Source: Myxococcus sp. RHSTA-1-4
GTDB lineage: Bacteria > Myxococcota > Myxococcia > Myxococcales > Myxococcaceae
Direction of reading: 5' to 3'
Length of the DNA stretch: 64,000 bases
Assembly: GCF_020037125.1 (NCBI RefSeq)
Contig: NZ_JAIQDG010000022.1
Coordinates: 124,001-188,000, forward strand
The notes below the pieces were generated by a model, which was not told where the DNA came from, did no database searches, and worked only from the letters and a program-made list of their open reading frames with translations. This document shows positions 27,340-38,451 of this stretch, piece after piece (within the stretch, counting starts at the first letter, position 1; the number at the start of each line of letters is the position of its first letter). The position numbers and the translations under genes are program-made.

Positions 27340-27858
27340 GTGATGCCAGAAGGCGCGAAGATAGCCCTCTACTCCGGGGCCGTGGCCGCGGTCCTGGCCC
27401 TGGCTTTTGGCCTGAGCAGTGCCTGCACCGGCGGACCCGAGCGTGGCATCCAGGGAGACAGTCCGAACACGACGGGCGCGGTGAAGCCGTTGTCCCCCGA
27501 CGAGTGCGTACGGCTCCAGCAGGTGATGACCACACGGGAGGCGACACGGTCGAGTCATGCAGCCCTCGCCTTCGCCCTCGTCTGCGCATCCGCCGGGCTG
27601 GGGATTCTCCTGTACTCCGCGGCGTCCGCTTCCACGCGCGTCACGTGGGTCACTGATGAGCAGCCCGCGCTCGGTCCCGGGACCGTGGGACTGATTCTCG
27701 TTGTCATCGCCGCACTGGTCGTCCTCCTCGCCCCTCGAAACGCGGCCCGCCTGCTGAACCCGCCCAAGGAGCCAGCCAGGACCGAGGACAAGACATGGGC
27801 AGAGAGAGCTCCGCCTCCGAAGGACGCGGGCGCCGACGCGGGAACCCAGGCTCCGTGA
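27340..27858 (+). CDS. Small three-helix membrane protein at head of RADAR block
   Basis: 172 aa (GTG 27340; the next codon is ATG 27343, and GGGGAG at 27330-27335 fits either). Hydrophobic segments at about residues 8-28, 73-95 and 115-132 are separated by polar loops; the first ends in LSSACTGG, which could be read as a lipobox. A Pro/Asp/Ala-rich soluble tail follows (about 138-172). No known family recognised. It is the first gene of the co-directional block leading to rdrA and rdrB, with 34 bp to the next gene. A GATAAT at 27310-27315 is a candidate -10 element. It could be a membrane partner of the defence system or unrelated. Confidence 0.6.
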   Translation: MMPEGAKIALYSGAVAAVLALAFGLSSACTGGPERGIQGDSPNTTGAVKPLSPDECVRLQQVMTTREATRSSHAALAFALVCASAGLGILLYSAASASTRVTWVTDEQPALGPGTVGLILVVIAALVVLLAPRNAARLLNPPKEPARTEDKTWAERAPPPKDAGADAGTQAP

Positions 27859-27892
27859 GCCTTCCCCCTCAGGCAGAGGAGCCACGCACGTA

Positions 27893-28648
27893 ATGGAGCA
27901 GACCATCCAGAGCATCTTCCAGACCTTCGAGGGGCTGATCCGCAGACAGTTCGCGCCCTCCATGACGTTCTTCGCCATCGTGGTCCTGGGGGAGTTCATC
28001 CGGGCCGCGCTGACCGGGGAACCTGCGGGGGCCTGGTTCAAGGACTTCCGCGGCTATCTGGAGGGGGAGGGCAAGCCGTCGGTCTTCATCACCCTCTTCA
28101 TCCTGCTGGCCATCGGGCTCAGCTACGCACTCGGCGCCATCCAGCAGCTCCTCTTCGACGACATGCTGAAGCGGAACTTCGACCCCACCACCCGCTTCAG
28201 CCGCTCCGTGGTGAGCGAGGCTCGGGCCCTCACGGAGCTCCGTGCCAAGGTGAAGCAGCGGCTCGTCGAGGAAGAGGCGGTCGGGGACCTGAGGAACCTT
28301 CAGGAGGCCTCGGACTACGTGCTCTACGAAATCCTCGGAGGCATCGATCCAACGGACACGTACCGCTTCGTCGACGCGGCGAAGGCGACAGGGATTGTCT
28401 GCGTCTCGGTCATCCTGGTGTTATTGGGCCATGTCCTGGTCTACTTCGAGGAGCTCGGCACGTGGGTCGCGCCCCTGTTGTTGCTGGCCGTCTTGTTCTA
28501 CTGGTGGGGGAGGGAGGCGGCCCTTTCCCAATATCGGGCCCGGGCCCTGCGGCTCTATGTGAACTTCCTGGCCATGCCGACAGCGCGGATCACGCGCCGG
28601 CTCCTCCGGCCGGATGAGGATCCAACGCTCACCTCCCAGGACAAGTAG
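27893..28648 (+). CDS. Four-helix membrane protein, candidate RADAR accessory
   Basis: 251 aa. Hydrophobic helices at about residues 21-40, 63-87, 165-185 and 190-206 flank a charged cytosolic section (about 90-160) rich in Glu, Arg and Lys with predicted helices (RALTELRAKVKQRLVEEEA). The C-terminus is basic then acidic (RRLLRPDEDPTLTSQDK). I cannot assign a family from sequence. Many RADAR loci carry a small membrane gene (SLATT-type or Csx27-like) beside rdrA and rdrB; position, size and topology here fit such a role, but SLATT proteins usually have two helices, so it is not an obvious member. It has AGAGGAG upstream and only 9 bp to the next gene, implying one operon. Confidence 0.65.
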   Translation: MEQTIQSIFQTFEGLIRRQFAPSMTFFAIVVLGEFIRAALTGEPAGAWFKDFRGYLEGEGKPSVFITLFILLAIGLSYALGAIQQLLFDDMLKRNFDPTTRFSRSVVSEARALTELRAKVKQRLVEEEAVGDLRNLQEASDYVLYEILGGIDPTDTYRFVDAAKATGIVCVSVILVLLGHVLVYFEELGTWVAPLLLLAVLFYWWGREAALSQYRARALRLYVNFLAMPTARITRRLLRPDEDPTLTSQDK

Positions 28649-28657
28649 TAGGAAACC

Positions 28658-29116
28658 ATGACGCCTCCCATCCATCCGCGCGGCACATATGTCGCGCTCT
28701 ACGGCAGTCACGGCGCGGAGTGGCGCCGCCGCGCCAAGGTGCTGCTCGACGCGGCGAACGTCCCCTGGCACGACCCCAGCGATGCGCGCTGGGAGGGCAT
28801 CACCCACGAGAACGGAGACGCGCACCAGGCGCTCATCGACCAACTGGTGACAGAGGAGCAGGACGCCTTGCTCAGGGCGGGATGCGCCGTCGTCCACTTC
28901 GCGGGCAGCAGGCCCTCGCTGGCGGCTCGTTTCGAGCTGGGCGTGCTCGCCGGCCGGGGCGTGAAGGCCTTCGTCCACGTCGAACCCGACGTGCAGGGCC
29001 GCAACTACATCTGGGCGGCGGTGAAGTACCACCATCCACACCTGGAGCGCTGCGACTCGCTGGAGGAGGCGGTGCGCCGGGCCATCGAGCACATGGGAGG
29101 CGCTTCTCGCCGGTGA
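28658..29116 (+). CDS. Nucleoside 2-deoxyribosyltransferase-like protein in RADAR block
   Basis: 152 aa. The pattern fits the nucleoside 2-deoxyribosyltransferase / SLOG-like Rossmannoid fold: first strand TYVALYGSHG, a helix beginning EWRRRAKVLL, NVPWHDPSD, then LLRAGCAVVHFAGS and SLAARFELGVLAGRGVKAFVHVEP. In deoxyribosyltransferases the ELG glutamate is the nucleophile; here that would be Glu93. Such enzymes exchange or hydrolyse the base of deoxynucleosides, and relatives serve as nucleotide sensors in defence operons. It is coupled to the membrane gene (9 bp gap, AGGAAA ribosome-binding site) and followed 153 bp later by rdrA. Assignment is by motif reading only; a TIR-like fold is the main alternative. 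I do not know this as a described RADAR component. Confidence 0.6.
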   Translation: MTPPIHPRGTYVALYGSHGAEWRRRAKVLLDAANVPWHDPSDARWEGITHENGDAHQALIDQLVTEEQDALLRAGCAVVHFAGSRPSLAARFELGVLAGRGVKAFVHVEPDVQGRNYIWAAVKYHHPHLERCDSLEEAVRRAIEHMGGASRR

Positions 29117-29269
29117 GCACGCCCCCCGGGGCAGGGGGAACATCCACACGCGCACAGCGTGGCAATTATTGACGGTCGTCCCTCCCTCCGGCCGTTGTCG
29201 TGCATGACCACCGGGCTCCATATGTCCCACCTACACGAGGCCGACTATCGGCCCGGAGGAGGGGACGAC

Positions 29270-32059
29270 ATGGCCAACGACGCGGGAAGTGCCTCGACTC
29301 CACGCTCCAGCTCCGACCGCAGTCCCAGGCCGGAGGCACTGCCGCTCAAGTGGAACGAGCTCCTGCCGACGACCCAGAAGGCCACCAGGGACCTCATCCA
29401 ATGGCTGTGTTCGGCCGTCCGCTCACTCCCCACGAGAGACGCCGGGGCGTCGAGAGAGCCAGACGCCTCGGATACCTCCCGGGCCACCCGGGAGCAGCTC
29501 GCGACCAGCGTGCTCGTCGCTGGCGACAGGGGCTTTGGGAAGACGACGGTCCTGCTGTCCGCCGCCTACGCCTTCCGGCAGCCCGATGACTTCCTCCCGG
29601 AAATCGAAACGTCCACCCAGGCGCGTGAGTTGCGCAGCCAGCTCAAGGAGTTCACGCGGCACATGGTCTGGTTGGAGCCCCTGGACATGGAGCCCCTGCC
29701 GGCGGAGGCCAACCTGCTGGCCACCCTGCTGGTGCGTGTGCGCGACGCGCTGGAGCTCGACCTCTCCGGGAACAAGAGCCAGAAGCTCATCCCCGCCGTC
29801 CTTCCCGAAGAGGGGGCCGACGACCCGTGGGGGAAGGTCGACACGCTTGTCCGGGATGCCACGTTCATGTGGGACGACAAGCCGGTGCAGGGGCAGGACG
29901 CCCGCCAGCGCGCCGAGTACCAGCTCAAGGCAGCCGAAATCTACGCCGACTTCCGGAGCCGTCTCTTCGGGGCCATTGACGCTGTGTCCAGACACCTCGC
30001 GCGGCGCAGGTACGGAAGTGAATCGAGCGAGGGAGTCATCCTCGTCCTGCCCATCGACAACGTGGACCGGAGCATCCAGCACCTCCACCTCATCCTGAAG
30101 CTGACGCGGATGGTGGCCAGCCGGAGGCTCTGGTTCGTCCTCGCCTCCGGGCGCCAGGAGTTCCAACTCTTCCTCGAGCGGACCTTCCAGGCGGAACTGG
30201 CCGAGTCCGGCAAGGCCGCCCCCAGCCCGAAGGAGCAGGACGAGACACGGTCCATTGCCCGGCGGCAGGCCGCCGCCGCGATGCGCAGGGTGCTGCCCCT
30301 GGTGCACCGCATCGAAATCGAGCCCCTGTCTCCACAGGCGGTCTGGGATTTCTACGCTCCTGCCTCCATCGCAGGTACGGCCTCGGGAAGAAAGCCACTC
30401 TGGGAGTATCTGGAGGCGCTCCGCCTGAAGGCCCCCCACCAGGAAGAGTCCGGGGCCCGCGACCAGGATCCGTACCGCTTCGCCGACCTCTTCGACGTCC
30501 GTGAGCGGCTTCTCGTCGAGGCGGACAATGGGCTGCTGCTGAAGCACCTCCTCGATGCCATGGAGAGGGAAAAGGAGGAGAAAGAGGAGGAGTTGGGTGG
30601 CCCCAGAGAGAAGCGGAAACACCTCCTGAGCGTCGATGAGCAGGGTGCACTCTACGTCGATTCGGACGGCGGCCAGCAGCCCCTGGAGGAGTTCCGCAAG
30701 CAGCAGGAGGCGCACGCGCGGAAGGAGCCGGATAGACTCCCCGTCTTCACGTACGCGGCGAAGCTCGCCCTGTCCATGTCCGCGCGAACCGCGCTGGATC
30801 TCTGGCAGGAGGCTCGCCATGCGTGCCAGCTTCAAGATGCATGTGATCAGCGCGACACGGCGGCAGGCAGAGCCCAGCGCGGTTTCGAGACGCTGGCCAT
30901 TGATATCGCCCATCGGATGCTGCTGATGGCCATTGATGAGAGTGACCTGCCGAGCTGGGGCAGCGAGCAACTCCTCCATCGAGTCATTCGTCGCGATCCG
31001 GCGGGACGCGTCACGCTGGACCTGACCGGCGAGCCCATACAACGCATCAAACTGTCTGCGCTGTCCGATGCACTGGAGTGGCGCGGCAAGCTGGGAGTGA
31101 ACAGCAAGCGGGAGAAGCACGGCGACGTGATGCTCCGCAGCGAGCTGCACCTGCGCTACTTCAAGGACATCATCCTCGAACTGCACGACCTGGAGCATCC
31201 CAACCGCAGCGTCCCCATTCCCCCGCAGGTGTCTGGCTGGTTCATGCTGTTGCACGACCTGCTGGTGATTTCCAATCAGTCGCGGGTGCTCAACCGCAAG
31301 CTGGCGCCACTCGACGTGACGCCCGAGCTCGTCGTGACGAGGCACGAGGCGCTGTTGCATGCCGACTCGATCGTCGAGCTCAACTTCCAGTGGTTGCTTC
31401 CCCAATGGGATACCTACTTCGACTCCTTCATCTTCACCATGCAGTGGAAGGCGTTCACCCAGCGCATCGACTGTCTCCTCCAGAACTCGAAGAGCTGGTC
31501 CGACAGTGTGGAGCGCTGTCTCTTCCGGCTCATCCTGGCCGCATGGGTGGACAACGTCCGCGCGGTGGCGGGCAGCGGCCGCGGTGAATGGAACTGGAGC
31601 AGGCTCCACGAACTTTGCGACCAGGCTGGGAAATCGCCTCCTCTCGATGAAAAGAAGCTGCTGGAGACAACGGACGGCTACGAGAAAGCGGTTGTCCAAG
31701 GTGTCCAAACGCTCCACGCAGAGACCCAGTCGAAGCGAGTTCGCTACGGCAGGCCCCGGATTGCGCGCGACTGGCTCGAGCTGTTCCTGCCCCTGATGGT
31801 GGAACCCGAGCTCATGCCCGGTGACAGCGGCAACTCCTTCCGTAACGCCCTGGGGCTGGAGCAGGCCCTCAGCGCCTCCCAGGCCGTCCACCCCTTGTCG
31901 GCCGCCTGGAAGCACAACGCGACGCTGCTTACCCAGCGCCGGTACGCCATGGTCCGCGCGGCAGCGCAGGCGGCCTACAGCCCTGACACGGCCGGGGAGC
32001 TCTCCAAGCCGGCATGGGCCGACGGCGCCTGGAAGACCTGGCGCGACACCTGGGAGTGA
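29270..32059 (+). CDS. rdrA: RADAR ATPase RdrA
   Basis: 929 aa. P-loop GDRGFGKT at about residues 85-92, Walker B VILVLPIDNVD at about 256-266, followed by a sensor-like WFVLASGRQEF. The remaining two thirds is a large, mostly helical region without recognised domains, as in RdrA, a AAA+-like ATPase that forms multimeric rings. ATG 29270 is chosen because GGAGGAGGGG (29256-29265) lies just before it; in-frame starts at 29159, 29204 and 29222 lack this. A 153-bp gap before it contains an AT-rich patch (caattatt, 29163-29170), perhaps an internal promoter. The RdrB gene follows after 6 bp, and that pairing makes the identification secure. Confidence 0.93.
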   Translation: MANDAGSASTPRSSSDRSPRPEALPLKWNELLPTTQKATRDLIQWLCSAVRSLPTRDAGASREPDASDTSRATREQLATSVLVAGDRGFGKTTVLLSAAYAFRQPDDFLPEIETSTQARELRSQLKEFTRHMVWLEPLDMEPLPAEANLLATLLVRVRDALELDLSGNKSQKLIPAVLPEEGADDPWGKVDTLVRDATFMWDDKPVQGQDARQRAEYQLKAAEIYADFRSRLFGAIDAVSRHLARRRYGSESSEGVILVLPIDNVDRSIQHLHLILKLTRMVASRRLWFVLASGRQEFQLFLERTFQAELAESGKAAPSPKEQDETRSIARRQAAAAMRRVLPLVHRIEIEPLSPQAVWDFYAPASIAGTASGRKPLWEYLEALRLKAPHQEESGARDQDPYRFADLFDVRERLLVEADNGLLLKHLLDAMEREKEEKEEELGGPREKRKHLLSVDEQGALYVDSDGGQQPLEEFRKQQEAHARKEPDRLPVFTYAAKLALSMSARTALDLWQEARHACQLQDACDQRDTAAGRAQRGFETLAIDIAHRMLLMAIDESDLPSWGSEQLLHRVIRRDPAGRVTLDLTGEPIQRIKLSALSDALEWRGKLGVNSKREKHGDVMLRSELHLRYFKDIILELHDLEHPNRSVPIPPQVSGWFMLLHDLLVISNQSRVLNRKLAPLDVTPELVVTRHEALLHADSIVELNFQWLLPQWDTYFDSFIFTMQWKAFTQRIDCLLQNSKSWSDSVERCLFRLILAAWVDNVRAVAGSGRGEWNWSRLHELCDQAGKSPPLDEKKLLETTDGYEKAVVQGVQTLHAETQSKRVRYGRPRIARDWLELFLPLMVEPELMPGDSGNSFRNALGLEQALSASQAVHPLSAAWKHNATLLTQRRYAMVRAAAQAAYSPDTAGELSKPAWADGAWKTWRDTWE

Positions 32060-32065
32060 GCGGCC

Positions 32066-34873
32066 ATGGGTGACGTCGTCACGCCTCCGGGCATCCCCCT
32101 GGCGCCCCGGCGCGTCCCCGAGGCCTATCTCCGGGCGGAGATCGCCAGCTTTCCCTTGGGCCGCGTCGAGGCCTTCCGCAGTTCCATGGTGGAGCTGGAC
32201 CCCACGCTCGAGGGGAAGACCCGCGACCTGTGGAGCGCCTGCGAGAAGGAACTCGCGCAGCATGCCGGCGGCTGGTCCCTGGACCGGCTCATCATGACGC
32301 GGGACTTCTTCTGGTTCGGCTGCGGGCCGAACGCCCCTCGCAACGTGGCCACCGGCCCCGTCTCCATGACCCGCTACCTGCGCGACCTGTCGCGCGACTT
32401 CCTCGACGCCTACCCGGGCATCACCGTGCTCAGCCAGCGGCACGACGCCAATGCCTTCGACGCGTACATCCACTACCGCTGGCTCACCTTCGCCCTGCCG
32501 GAGGACCTGCTGCTCGCGGCCGCGCCCACGGAGGTGCCTCCCACGCAGGTGAACGTGGAGTACCCCCTGCTGCTGCAACACCTGGTGGACCGCGGGGCGC
32601 CGGAGGTGCACCACCACGTGGGCGCGGGCATGGACTTCCCGCTGCTGTGGGCCTCGCTCCTGGCGAAGCTGACGGACTCGACGCTCTCCCCCCGCGCGGC
32701 GAACAGCCCGGACCTTCCCTTCGACCTGGGGGAGCGGCTGTTGCGCTGGCTGGTGGCCGCCGCCGTGGCCCGCTGTGTGCTCGCCGAGTTCCTCCTCCAA
32801 TGCTCCGGTACCGGCGCCGGGTTGAAGGACTTCCTCGAGCGCCTCTACCGCTCACCCTCCTGGCCCCAGGCCCGTGCCCGGCTGTTGAACGAGACGCTCC
32901 AGGCCCTCTCGCGGGGACAGGTCTCGGAGCTGCCCGAGTACTACGCGCTGCAGGACCTCTACGGGAGCCTCCACCCGGCGGCGTCCTGGCTCGCCTCGAA
33001 GCGGCCCGAGACGGTGGACGAGGTGTGGCGCAGGTGCGACCCCATCGCCGTGCGCCTGGGCCTGAGCAACCCCAATGGCGGCGAGCGCTGGCTGATACGC
33101 CACGGACTGGAGTGGCTGGAGCGCGAGCGGGCGCGCGCCCGGAATGACCCGAGCTACCACTACTTCAACCAGCTCTTCTGGCAGGTGCAGCGGGTGCGGT
33201 GCATCTACTACCGCACCGTGGTGCAGCGTCCGCTGACGTCCGGCCTGCAGTGGTTCGTCCGCTTCTATGACCGGCTCTGGTGGGCCCGCGAGCCCCTGCG
33301 CGCCGCGCGCGCCGAGGTGTCCTACCAGGTGGCGGGACGGGGCAGGCCGCTCTCCTCGCTGGAGGTTCGCATCACGCCCCACGCCAACTCCTTCTCGCTG
33401 GCCGAGGACCTCCATGAGCTCACCCGCTCGTGGACGCGGGTGCTGGAGAAGAGCCACGGCCCGCGGTATGGCGCGCGGGCTCCCGAGTTCGGGGTCATCC
33501 TCCACTTCGTCAAGGAGAGAGACCCGGAGCAGCGCTGGGCCACCGGAGCTCCGCCGGCGGCCGAGCTGGGCACGCATGCCGAGCCCCGCGCCCAGCGGGG
33601 ACTGCGGCTGGGAGGCCGGTTCGCGAGCTTCTTCTCGGACCAGTCCGTCAGGGCCCGGTCCATCGCGGCGCTGCTGGGTGCCGTGCCGCAGGCGCTCTGG
33701 CTGGTGCGGGGGCTGGACGTGGCGGCGGACGAGCTGAGCGTGCCCACGTGGGTGCTGGTGCCCCTCTACCGCTACATCCACCGGCAGGCGACCCTGGCCT
33801 CCATGTCACCCGCGGCGGACGGAGCCCCGCCGCTGCGGCTGACGGCGCACGTAGGTGAGGACTACCGCCACCTCATGGAGGGACTGCGGCGCGTCTTCGA
33901 GTGCATCCAGTACCTGCTGGAGCGCTTCGGGGGGCGGCTGGGGCACGCCACGGCGCTGGGCGTGGAGCCGCGCCTGTGGGCGGAGTCGGCGGGCTCGGTG
34001 ATGACGCCCGCCGAGGAGCGGATGTGGGACCTCGTCTTCGAGTGGCGGCTGTACAGCGGCTACCGCATCGCGCCCCACTTCCTGGCGGAGGCGCCCCCCG
34101 GGCGCCCGGAGCACGTGGAGAACCTCATCCGCGAGCTCTCGAGCAACATCTTCGGCAGGTGCTACGAACCACAGGTGATGGCCGAGGCCCACCACATCCT
34201 GCACCGGCTCCTGAGCCGGCCCGAGTCGAGGATTGGCAGCCAGGAGGGAGGGCTGGAGTCCCTCACCCGCGCGCTGCACACCCTGGATCCGCGCCACGTG
34301 CGCTACCCGATGGAGGTCCGTGAAATCATCCGGGCCTACCGGGAGGATGAACAGACCTTCAAGCGTGGGCAGGAGTTGGTGGACATCACCCTGGATGCCT
34401 CGGAGATAGCCGCGCTCTACGCCGCGCAGAACGCGCTGCGCCGGGGAGTGGGCCTGCGCAACATCGTCGTCGAGGTGAACCCGTCCAGCAACCTGTTGAC
34501 GGGAGACATGCTGGACCTGCGCAACCATCCCATCCTGCGGCTCTTCCCACCGGAGCGTCAGGAGAAGGAACCTCCGCCGGTGCCCATCGCGGTGGGCTCG
34601 GACGACCCGATGACGTTCAGCACCTGGCTGCTGCACGAATACTCGCTGCTGTTCGAGGCGGCCCTCACCGCGGGCTATCCGGAGCGGGTGGTGCACTCGT
34701 GGCTGGAGAACATCCAGAAGATGGGCATGGATGCCCGCTTTACCGTGGCCTGGCTGCCGACGGCCCGGAAGCGGGCGGACGCCCTGCTGCGCGAGCTCGA
34801 ACGCTACCTCCTGCTCCCGGACTCCAGGCGCCCCCGGCGGTCACCGGGGAGGCCCCTTCATCCGAGTAACTGA
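32066..34873 (+). CDS. rdrB: RADAR adenosine deaminase RdrB
   Basis: 935 aa. All adenosine-deaminase zinc-site motifs are present but far apart: VHHHVGAGMDF (His182-184), the catalytic HVGEDY (His at about 595, with Glu), NPSSN (about 805-809) and the metal-binding SDDPM (Asp846-847). Normal adenosine deaminases are about 350 aa; the large insertion between the first and second motifs and the total length are typical of RdrB, which builds a dodecameric shell that docks RdrA. The complex is reported to deaminate adenosine in RNA and/or ATP to ITP during phage infection. Start ATG 32066 lies 6 bp after rdrA, so the two are translationally linked. No catalytic residue looks lost. Confidence 0.95.
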   Translation: MGDVVTPPGIPLAPRRVPEAYLRAEIASFPLGRVEAFRSSMVELDPTLEGKTRDLWSACEKELAQHAGGWSLDRLIMTRDFFWFGCGPNAPRNVATGPVSMTRYLRDLSRDFLDAYPGITVLSQRHDANAFDAYIHYRWLTFALPEDLLLAAAPTEVPPTQVNVEYPLLLQHLVDRGAPEVHHHVGAGMDFPLLWASLLAKLTDSTLSPRAANSPDLPFDLGERLLRWLVAAAVARCVLAEFLLQCSGTGAGLKDFLERLYRSPSWPQARARLLNETLQALSRGQVSELPEYYALQDLYGSLHPAASWLASKRPETVDEVWRRCDPIAVRLGLSNPNGGERWLIRHGLEWLERERARARNDPSYHYFNQLFWQVQRVRCIYYRTVVQRPLTSGLQWFVRFYDRLWWAREPLRAARAEVSYQVAGRGRPLSSLEVRITPHANSFSLAEDLHELTRSWTRVLEKSHGPRYGARAPEFGVILHFVKERDPEQRWATGAPPAAELGTHAEPRAQRGLRLGGRFASFFSDQSVRARSIAALLGAVPQALWLVRGLDVAADELSVPTWVLVPLYRYIHRQATLASMSPAADGAPPLRLTAHVGEDYRHLMEGLRRVFECIQYLLERFGGRLGHATALGVEPRLWAESAGSVMTPAEERMWDLVFEWRLYSGYRIAPHFLAEAPPGRPEHVENLIRELSSNIFGRCYEPQVMAEAHHILHRLLSRPESRIGSQEGGLESLTRALHTLDPRHVRYPMEVREIIRAYREDEQTFKRGQELVDITLDASEIAALYAAQNALRRGVGLRNIVVEVNPSSNLLTGDMLDLRNHPILRLFPPERQEKEPPPVPIAVGSDDPMTFSTWLLHEYSLLFEAALTAGYPERVVHSWLENIQKMGMDARFTVAWLPTARKRADALLRELERYLLLPDSRRPRRSPGRPLHPSN

Positions 34874-36501: not shown

Positions 36502-36558
36502 ACCGGAGCGTGGGGGCCTCCACCTTGAGCAGTGAGCCCACCAACCGGGGAGGTGGCC

Positions 36559-36978
36559 GTGCAGCCGGGGACCTACCAGTTCGAACCTCACACCGCCGAG
36601 GTCCAGTTCCGCGTCGAGGGCACCAGCCTGCCGGAGCTCTTCGAGGAGTCGGGGTATGCGCTGGCCGAGCTCATGCTCGGTGAGTCGCCGCCGGAGCCGC
36701 CGCGCGACGCGGAGGAAGAGCAGGTCACGCTCGAGTCGGCGGACACCGAGGCGCTGCTCGTCGACTGGCTCAACGAGCTCATCTCCCGCGCGGACACGAA
36801 GAAGCGGGTCTACACGCACATCGTGGTGGACGACGTCTCCGAGCGGAAGCTTCGCGCGCGCATCCGCGGCTTCACGCCCGAGGTGCTGAAGACCGCGGTG
36901 AAGGCCGCCACCTTCCATGGGCTGGAGATTCGCGAGCACGAAGAAGGCTTCAACGCCACCGTCGTGCTCGACGTGTGA
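36559..36978 (+). CDS. Archease, RtcB cofactor
   Basis: 139 aa from the GTG at 36559, preferred because GGGGAGG (36547-36553) is 5 bp upstream; an in-frame start at 36532 would add nine residues that do not match the family. The sequence begins YQFEPHTAEVQFRVEG, the archease N-terminal pattern, and contains ALLVDWLNELISRAD and the C-terminal GLEIREHEEGFNATVVLDV. Archease speeds guanylation and turnover of RtcB RNA ligase. The rtcB gene follows after 9 bp, confirming the pair. Confidence 0.92.
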   Translation: MQPGTYQFEPHTAEVQFRVEGTSLPELFEESGYALAELMLGESPPEPPRDAEEEQVTLESADTEALLVDWLNELISRADTKKRVYTHIVVDDVSERKLRARIRGFTPEVLKTAVKAATFHGLEIREHEEGFNATVVLDV

Positions 36979-36987
36979 GAGGCGAGC

Positions 36988-38451
36988 ATGGAACCCACCG
37001 TCGAAGTCCCACAGCAGCCCACGCCGCTTCTTCGCCAGATTGGCCCGGCGCTCCATGAGCTGGACATGAGCTTCCGCGCGGACATGCGCGTGCCGGCCCG
37101 CATCGTCGCCGACGAGGAGCTGCTTCAACGGATGACCCAGGACCGCAGCATCGTCCAGCTGGTCAACGTGACGACGCTGCCGGGCATCCAGGGCTTCGCC
37201 ATCGGCATGCCGGACATGCACGAGGGCTATGGCTTCCCCGTGGGCGGCGTGGCGGGCACGTTGCTGCCCGACGGCGTCATCTCTCCCGGGGGAATCGGCT
37301 TCGACATCAACTGCGGCGTGCGGCTGCTCTCCACCGGGCTGCGCCACGAGGACCTGAAGGAGGTCCTGCCGGCCCTGGCCCATGACCTGGCCCGGAGTAT
37401 TCCCACGGGCTTCGGCCGCCACGGGCGGCTGTCGCTGAGCGCGGCGGAGCTGGACCGGGTCCTCGACGAAGGCGTTCCGTACGTGGTGGAGGTGCTGGGG
37501 CTGGGGAGCCGGGAGGACCTCGCGCACATCGAGGCGGGGGGGCACCTGCCCGGCGCGGATGCGGGGCGGGTCACCGTGCGGGCCCGGGAGCGGGGGCATG
37601 ACCAGCTCGGCACCCTGGGCGGCGGCAATCACTTCATCGAGGTGCAGCGCGTGGAGCACATCCACGACGCGGAGGCCGCCACGGCCTTCGGACTGTTCGA
37701 GGGGCAGCTCACCGTCCTCATCCACACGGGCTCGCGCGGGCTGGGACATCAGGTCTGCACGGATGCCGTGCGGAAGATGGACCAGGTCCTGGCGCGGGAG
37801 GGCATCCGGCTGGTGGACCGGCAGCTCGCCTGCGCGCCATTCTCCTCGCCCGAGGGCCAGGACTACTTCGCGGCCATGTGCGCCGCGGCCAACTTCGCGT
37901 GGTCCAACCGGCAGGTGCTCACGCACCGCGTGCGCGAGGTGTTCGGCCGAAGGCTCGGTGAGCGCGCCGAGGCGTGGCCGCGAGTCGTCTATGACGTGGC
38001 CCACAACATCGCCAAGGTGGAGACGTACGGCGGGCAGCAGCTGTGCGTGCACCGCAAGGGCGCGACGCGGGCGTTCGGCCCGGGGGACCCGGAGCTGCCC
38101 TCGGCCTACGCGGAGGCCGGCCAGCCGGTATTCATCCCCGGCAGCATGGGCACGGCGTCCTTCGTGCTGGCGGGGCAGGGCGAGTCCCGGTCCATCTCGC
38201 TCGGCAGTGCCTGCCACGGGGCGGGGCGGCAGCTCAGCCGGGCCGCCGCGAAGCGGCAGGTGGTGGGCGCGGAGCTGCGCAAGGCGCTGAACGCGCGGGG
38301 CATCATCGTGGAGTGCCCGTCGAACGCGGAGCTCGCGGAGGAAGCCCCCACGGCCTACAAGGACGTGGACCGGGTGGTGGACGCGGTGGAGACGGCGGGC
38401 ATCGCCCGGAAGGTGGCGCGGTTGGTGCCGCTGGCGGTGCTCAAGGGCTGA
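36988..38451 (+). CDS. rtcB: RtcB RNA-splicing ligase
   Basis: 487 aa. Mn-binding and catalytic blocks are intact: GMPDMHEGYGFPVGGVAG, FDINCGVRLL (metal Cys), GTLGGGNHFIEVQ, HTGSRGLGHQ, and HRKGATRAFGPG with the histidine that is guanylated. RtcB joins 2',3'-cyclic-phosphate or 3'-phosphate RNA ends to 5'-OH ends, repairing RNAs cut by ribonucleases and toxins. It is encoded directly after archease and about 2.1 kb downstream of the RADAR genes on the same strand, an interesting but possibly coincidental arrangement since archease-rtcB pairs are common. Its 3' end overlaps the convergent CapA gene by 11 bp. Confidence 0.97.
   Translation: MEPTVEVPQQPTPLLRQIGPALHELDMSFRADMRVPARIVADEELLQRMTQDRSIVQLVNVTTLPGIQGFAIGMPDMHEGYGFPVGGVAGTLLPDGVISPGGIGFDINCGVRLLSTGLRHEDLKEVLPALAHDLARSIPTGFGRHGRLSLSAAELDRVLDEGVPYVVEVLGLGSREDLAHIEAGGHLPGADAGRVTVRARERGHDQLGTLGGGNHFIEVQRVEHIHDAEAATAFGLFEGQLTVLIHTGSRGLGHQVCTDAVRKMDQVLAREGIRLVDRQLACAPFSSPEGQDYFAAMCAAANFAWSNRQVLTHRVREVFGRRLGERAEAWPRVVYDVAHNIAKVETYGGQQLCVHRKGATRAFGPGDPELPSAYAEAGQPVFIPGSMGTASFVLAGQGESRSISLGSACHGAGRQLSRAAAKRQVVGAELRKALNARGIIVECPSNAELAEEAPTAYKDVDRVVDAVETAGIARKVARLVPLAVLKG

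Follow-up and report, generated by a model that had tools for sequence, protein, structure and literature searches.

A candidate two-gene cassette of an NDT-fold protein and a membrane protein adjoining RADAR in Myxococcus sp. RHSTA-1-4

In the 64,000-nucleotide stretch of the Myxococcus sp. RHSTA-1-4 genome analysed here (contig NZ_JAIQDG010000022.1, positions 124,001-188,000; the window), a gene for a protein related to nucleoside deoxyribosyltransferases (NDT) lies just upstream of rdrA and rdrB, the genes of the bacterial anti-phage system RADAR. Sequence comparison is best read as placing this gene in a separate, tightly coupled two-gene cassette (27893-29116), together with a gene for a membrane protein, TMB; the cassette appears to be independent of RADAR and merely to adjoin it in a variable defence region. 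NDT-type conflict proteins are already known or proposed; what would be new is a putative conflict enzyme of this type whose membrane partner falls in no recognised family, and no open-access paper describing the TMB-NDT pair was found. The case also corrects an easy mistake, in that a nucleoside enzyme beside RADAR resembles a new RADAR part, while the comparative data separate the two cleanly.

The NDT gene and the family of its product

A 152 AA frame with an ATG start is found at 28658-29116 on the forward strand, where the first-pass annotation had put it. It is judged to be a genuine coding gene from its GC3 of 0.88 and from a dN/dS of about 0.25 (NG86; dN 0.22, dS 0.87) against its relative in Archangium lansinium, to which its product is 72% identical. 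Using Pfam, the product matches PF15891 (Nuc_deoxyri_tr2) with an E value of 1e-6 and 29.4 bits, the curated cutoff being 30 bits; the score comes to 30 when neighbouring frame residues are included, and the Archangium protein, at 30.2 bits, lies above the cutoff. Viral PF15891 proteins were gathered as a family comparison set, and hhalign against 26 of these gave a probability of 93% and an E value of 3.1e-7. The AF2 model obtained from an alignment of 41 viral PF15891 proteins and the Archangium relative has a pLDDT of 85 and a pTM of 0.81, while the one made from the window protein and its Archangium relative alone, with a pLDDT of 43, was unusable; since the model leaned on PF15891 relatives, model and family are not fully independent evidence for the fold. 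The solved folds closest to the model are Enterococcus 7m5h, the PF15891 member 4mcj (Parabacteroides distasonis BDI_0649), YtoQ, DNPH1, NDTs and MilB, with Z of about 11-13.5 (13.2 for the VIA-align alignment to 4mcj), and Foldseek agrees on NDT/DNPH1/MilB-type folds, with a best E value of 2e-3 and a probability of 1.00. A PDB search with the single sequence gave no match, and nothing among the PADLOC, NCBIfam and PHROGs models matched the protein.

As judged from these profiles and the predicted structure, the protein is a divergent branch of PF15891 with an NDT-type fold, and an atypical member of that family. The deoxyribosyltransferase-type pattern described in the first-pass annotation, which had also proposed a profile-profile comparison and structure prediction, is borne out by Pfam, hhalign, AF2 and the solved-fold neighbours; its further label of "SLOG-like" is superfluous, the fold matches being to NDT/DNPH1/MilB. 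Additional PF15891-like frames seen in the same genome (contig C80) and in genome G114 belong to a different protein.

Across 48 aligned family sequences, residues G16, P40, V64, E67, E93 and G95 are invariant. Glu93 (codon 28934-28936, + strand; FELG) stands at the nucleophile position, for which it had earlier been named as candidate, and Glu67 (codon 28856-28858, + strand) corresponds in placement to the general-acid Asp of NDT/DNPH1, whose role it may share; they match the invariant E of LELG and of QVxWE, respectively, in PF15891. NPRR, a motif conserved in 44-45 of the 45 collected viral members rather than a curated PF15891 criterion, is replaced by DPSD in both NDT copies, so that the substrate site is altered. 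Residue 13 (codon 28694-28696, + strand) is Ala in the window protein and Gly in that of Archangium, as against Phe in 45/45 viral PF15891 relatives. On the strength of the family alignment and of what is generally known about NDT sequences, rather than of superposed coordinates, we take this residue to be the Tyr position of true NDT/DNPH1, so that neither copy has the strand-1 Tyr of those enzymes. That Tyr hydrogen-bonds the catalytic Glu and accompanies 2'-deoxy specificity, and NADase TIR domains carry Phe or Ala in its place (PMC11204291). As residue 13 is non-aromatic in both copies, we infer that the protein is probably not deoxy-selective. Compared with 4mcj and its family, then, the window protein shares the fold and the six invariant residues and differs in DPSD, in Ala13, in three residues that the alignment shows inserted ahead of F92-E93, and in having a membrane-protein partner. 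With the N-glycosidases NDT, DNPH1 and MilB it has in common the fold (Z of about 11-13) and the position of the nucleophile glutamate, but only some 10-17% identity; it lacks the active-site Tyr of NDT/DNPH1, and again has a membrane partner.

The membrane partner and the extent of the cassette

TMB (27893-28648, + strand) is a 251 AA protein with four predicted transmembrane segments, and its gene adjoins that of NDT in both known loci, with a gap of 9 bp in the window and a 4-base GTGA overlap in Archangium lansinium, where the second NDT copy lies at 13.64 Mb. The short spacing by which the gene had earlier been tied to those before rdrA is thereby upheld. Of the 147 genomes from the class, two yielded NDT, and TMB turned up in those two only, next to NDT each time, the pairing being based on n=2 copies and the association with defence on two neighbourhoods; the genome-collection scan used short patterns, with a reach of close relatives only. 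When 195 genomes of the phylum were searched with profiles, the only additions were marginal matches to the NDT profile (E 0.004-0.008), lying within larger frames, and a single marginal match to TMB (E 0.012). No NDT relative was detected in the plasmids, phages or viral contigs searched, nor any TMB relative in the plasmids or viral contigs searched, and TMB belongs to no family recognised by Pfam, PADLOC, NCBIfam or PHROGs.

The DNA similarity between the window and the Archangium locus is confined to approximately 27918-29097, that is, to TMB and NDT; because it ends at these two genes, the cassette is taken to consist of them, edge to edge. TMB diverges faster than NDT between the loci (dN 0.38 vs 0.22). 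No flanking repeats that might mark an insertion were found around the cassette. Upstream of TMB lies TMA (27340-27858, + strand), a 172 AA predicted membrane protein with three predicted transmembrane segments; it is absent from the Archangium pair, and its membership in the cassette is doubtful.

In Archangium, TMB-NDT is preceded on the same strand by genes for a TIR-nSTAND protein, a TIR-caspase and a large membrane protein, giving two defence neighbourhoods for the pair: RADAR in the window, TIR-caspase and TIR-nSTAND in Archangium. The latter three genes (L036:1960-9022) stand directly before TMB-NDT, in the order large membrane protein, TIR-caspase, TIR-nSTAND, and resemble a conflict island of their own. 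Within 27340-34873 of the window, the membrane genes, NDT and rdrA have a G+C content of about 64-69%; most of the flanking DNA has 70-74%, a difference of the kind seen with acquired DNA. Shortly after RADAR, at 36532-38451, are genes for a 148 AA and a 487 AA protein that look by eye archease-like and RtcB-like, with a gene likewise read by eye as metallo-hydrolase/rhodanese-like also lying between them and RADAR.

Possible functions of the pair

The explanation that, taken as a whole, seems on balance somewhat probable is that TMB-NDT is a RADAR-independent cassette comprising an active N-glycosidase and a membrane anchor or effector, with an anti-phage role; most likely the pair acts as a membrane-linked nucleotide-cleaving or nucleotide-sensing effector. 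The glycosidase would be of the NDT/DNPH1/MilB/TIR-like kind, with Glu93 attacking the sugar C1' and Glu67 serving as acid/base, and its substrate would probably be of ribonucleotide type, such as NAD+ or NMP, rather than a deoxynucleoside, since the 2'-deoxy-selecting tyrosine is absent. TMB may anchor NDT or be gated by it, and activation during phage infection would then lead to a drained nucleotide or a breached membrane. The pair makes a small candidate conflict module, membrane-linked and nucleotide-cleaving, that is open to experiment, since E93, E67 and Ala13 give specific predictions of substrate and mechanism. An NDT-like fold in a phage-defence setting is known from the filament-forming effector of Retron-Eco1 (PMC12887533), a likeness drawn here by description; the window protein differs in being single-domain and in having a membrane protein as its partner, and no reverse transcriptase was seen among the neighbouring proteins scanned.

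A more specific form of this, put forward tentatively, is an anti-phage system in which the NDT-fold glycosidase would cleave or make a ribonucleotide signal driving the four-segment TMB, as a TIR-free analogue of membrane-type Thoeris. There, TIR protein ThsB is combined with TM-macro ThsA, a membrane effector driven by a nucleotide signal (PMC11204291); effectors of this sort, SLATT proteins (PMC7159879) among them, are a well-established theme. The analogy is one of function, a TIR-type nucleotide enzyme together with a transmembrane effector; TMB-NDT contains no TIR, and no macro domain is recognised in TMB.

Clearly less likely than the glycosidase reading is a role of NDT as a sensor, whereby a nucleotide signal bound in its pocket would open TMB in the manner of SLATT membrane proteins, which have been described as pore formers responding to nucleotide signals (PMC7159879). 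The coupling of NDT to a protein with four transmembrane segments and the loss of the family's NPRR motif are consistent with this, the altered substrate site possibly being that of a catalytically dead sensor, and a signal-making gene would be unneeded if the TIR or RADAR neighbours alter the nucleotide pool. However, both catalytic-type acids, E67 and E93, have been kept despite wide divergence, which favours an enzyme over a sensor. A toxin-antitoxin pair, in which either TMB or NDT would be toxic and the other would neutralise it, is unlikely: two small coupled genes of sparse distribution, with similarity limited to the two as for a mobile unit, would suit it, as would the occurrence of NDT domains as toxin-like parts of Abi proteins, in AbiJ-type fusions (PMC3710099), but TMB matches no toxin or antitoxin family.

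Relation to RADAR

The neighbours downstream, outside the cassette, are rdrA (29270-32059, + strand), encoding the AAA ATPase of RADAR, and rdrB (32066-34873, + strand), encoding its adenosine deaminase. Both proteins are divergent: against the PADLOC and NCBIfam models, RdrA gives weak matches (E 2e-4 and 2e-7), whereas RdrB gives E values of 3e-32 and 5e-39 and also matches the solved RdrB 8fnv/8fnw with 3e-28. For the start of rdrA, ATG 29270 is the best choice, and not GTG 29159, since homologues align from about there with their own ATG and the strong Shine-Dalgarno sequence GGAGGAGGGG lies just upstream. This leaves 153 bp (29117-29269, + strand) between the NDT stop and rdrA, where the similarity to Archangium is already over, as compared with 9 bp between TMB and NDT and 6 bp between rdrA and rdrB. 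Scans of these 153 bp for promoters and terminators gave nothing clear, and because of this NDT may be co-transcribed with rdrA in this strain. The first-pass annotation had placed the gene inside the RADAR operon; that it adjoins RADAR holds, with RdrA and RdrB confirmed by the models, but at 153 bp from rdrA its membership in the operon is unsupported.

RdrB relatives are present in 30 of the 147 genomes of the class, 28 of them without NDT, and linkage of NDT to rdrA/rdrB is seen in 1 of the 30. In Archangium lansinium, RADAR lies at 2.65 Mb, approximately 11 Mb from the NDT gene. NDT and TMB are absent from 19 fetched RADAR loci, for 16 of which the sequence covered 4 kb or more before rdrA, and no NDT gene is listed, in an incomplete gene table, at four plasmid RADAR-like loci of Rhizobium, Pantoea and Cetobacterium. 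In many of the 19 loci the gene before rdrA is on the opposite strand, and RADAR is therefore its own unit there; the DNA upstream of rdrA is not conserved between RADAR loci, and no shared RADAR promoter was found. TMB-NDT adjoins RADAR in this genome only and appears to be a separate unit, not conserved with it; by these comparisons, NDT as a RADAR component is not supported. The first-pass annotation had suggested a linked RADAR step acting on inosine products of RdrB, and had proposed a survey of other rdrA/rdrB loci, absence of the gene from which was to count against its idea; the gene is absent from all the others examined, and the suggestion is contradicted by the sole close relative, paired with TMB far from RADAR. 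It is accordingly very improbable that NDT is a RADAR accessory processing or sensing inosine nucleotides made by RdrB: it is adjacent and on the same strand, much of the block is lower in G+C than the flanks, and the chemistry is plausible, ITP/dITP being produced by RADAR (PMC9994260), but it is missing from every other RADAR locus examined, the one further copy known lies 11 Mb away from RADAR, RADAR has been described as a two-gene system of rdrA and rdrB (PMC9994260), and residue 13 speaks against a 2'-deoxy preference.

Two more RdrB-like genes are present in the same genome, on contigs C42 (125071-127692; 37% identity) and C71 (31447-33972; 33%), and it may hold three RADAR-like loci; genome G084 likewise gives three RdrB matches. 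On Rhizobium leguminosarum plasmid pRLN3 (L137:4075-12094), a gene in the same orientation that comes after the RADAR-like ones encodes adenylosuccinate synthetase, a purine enzyme using IMP. At most of the loci from one genus (g6) and at L051, rdrB is followed on the opposite strand by a gene for a membrane protein of about 365-477 AA, which is not found in the window; this protein forms a family (c2) seen at 12 loci among L042-L055, and is a possible RADAR neighbour.
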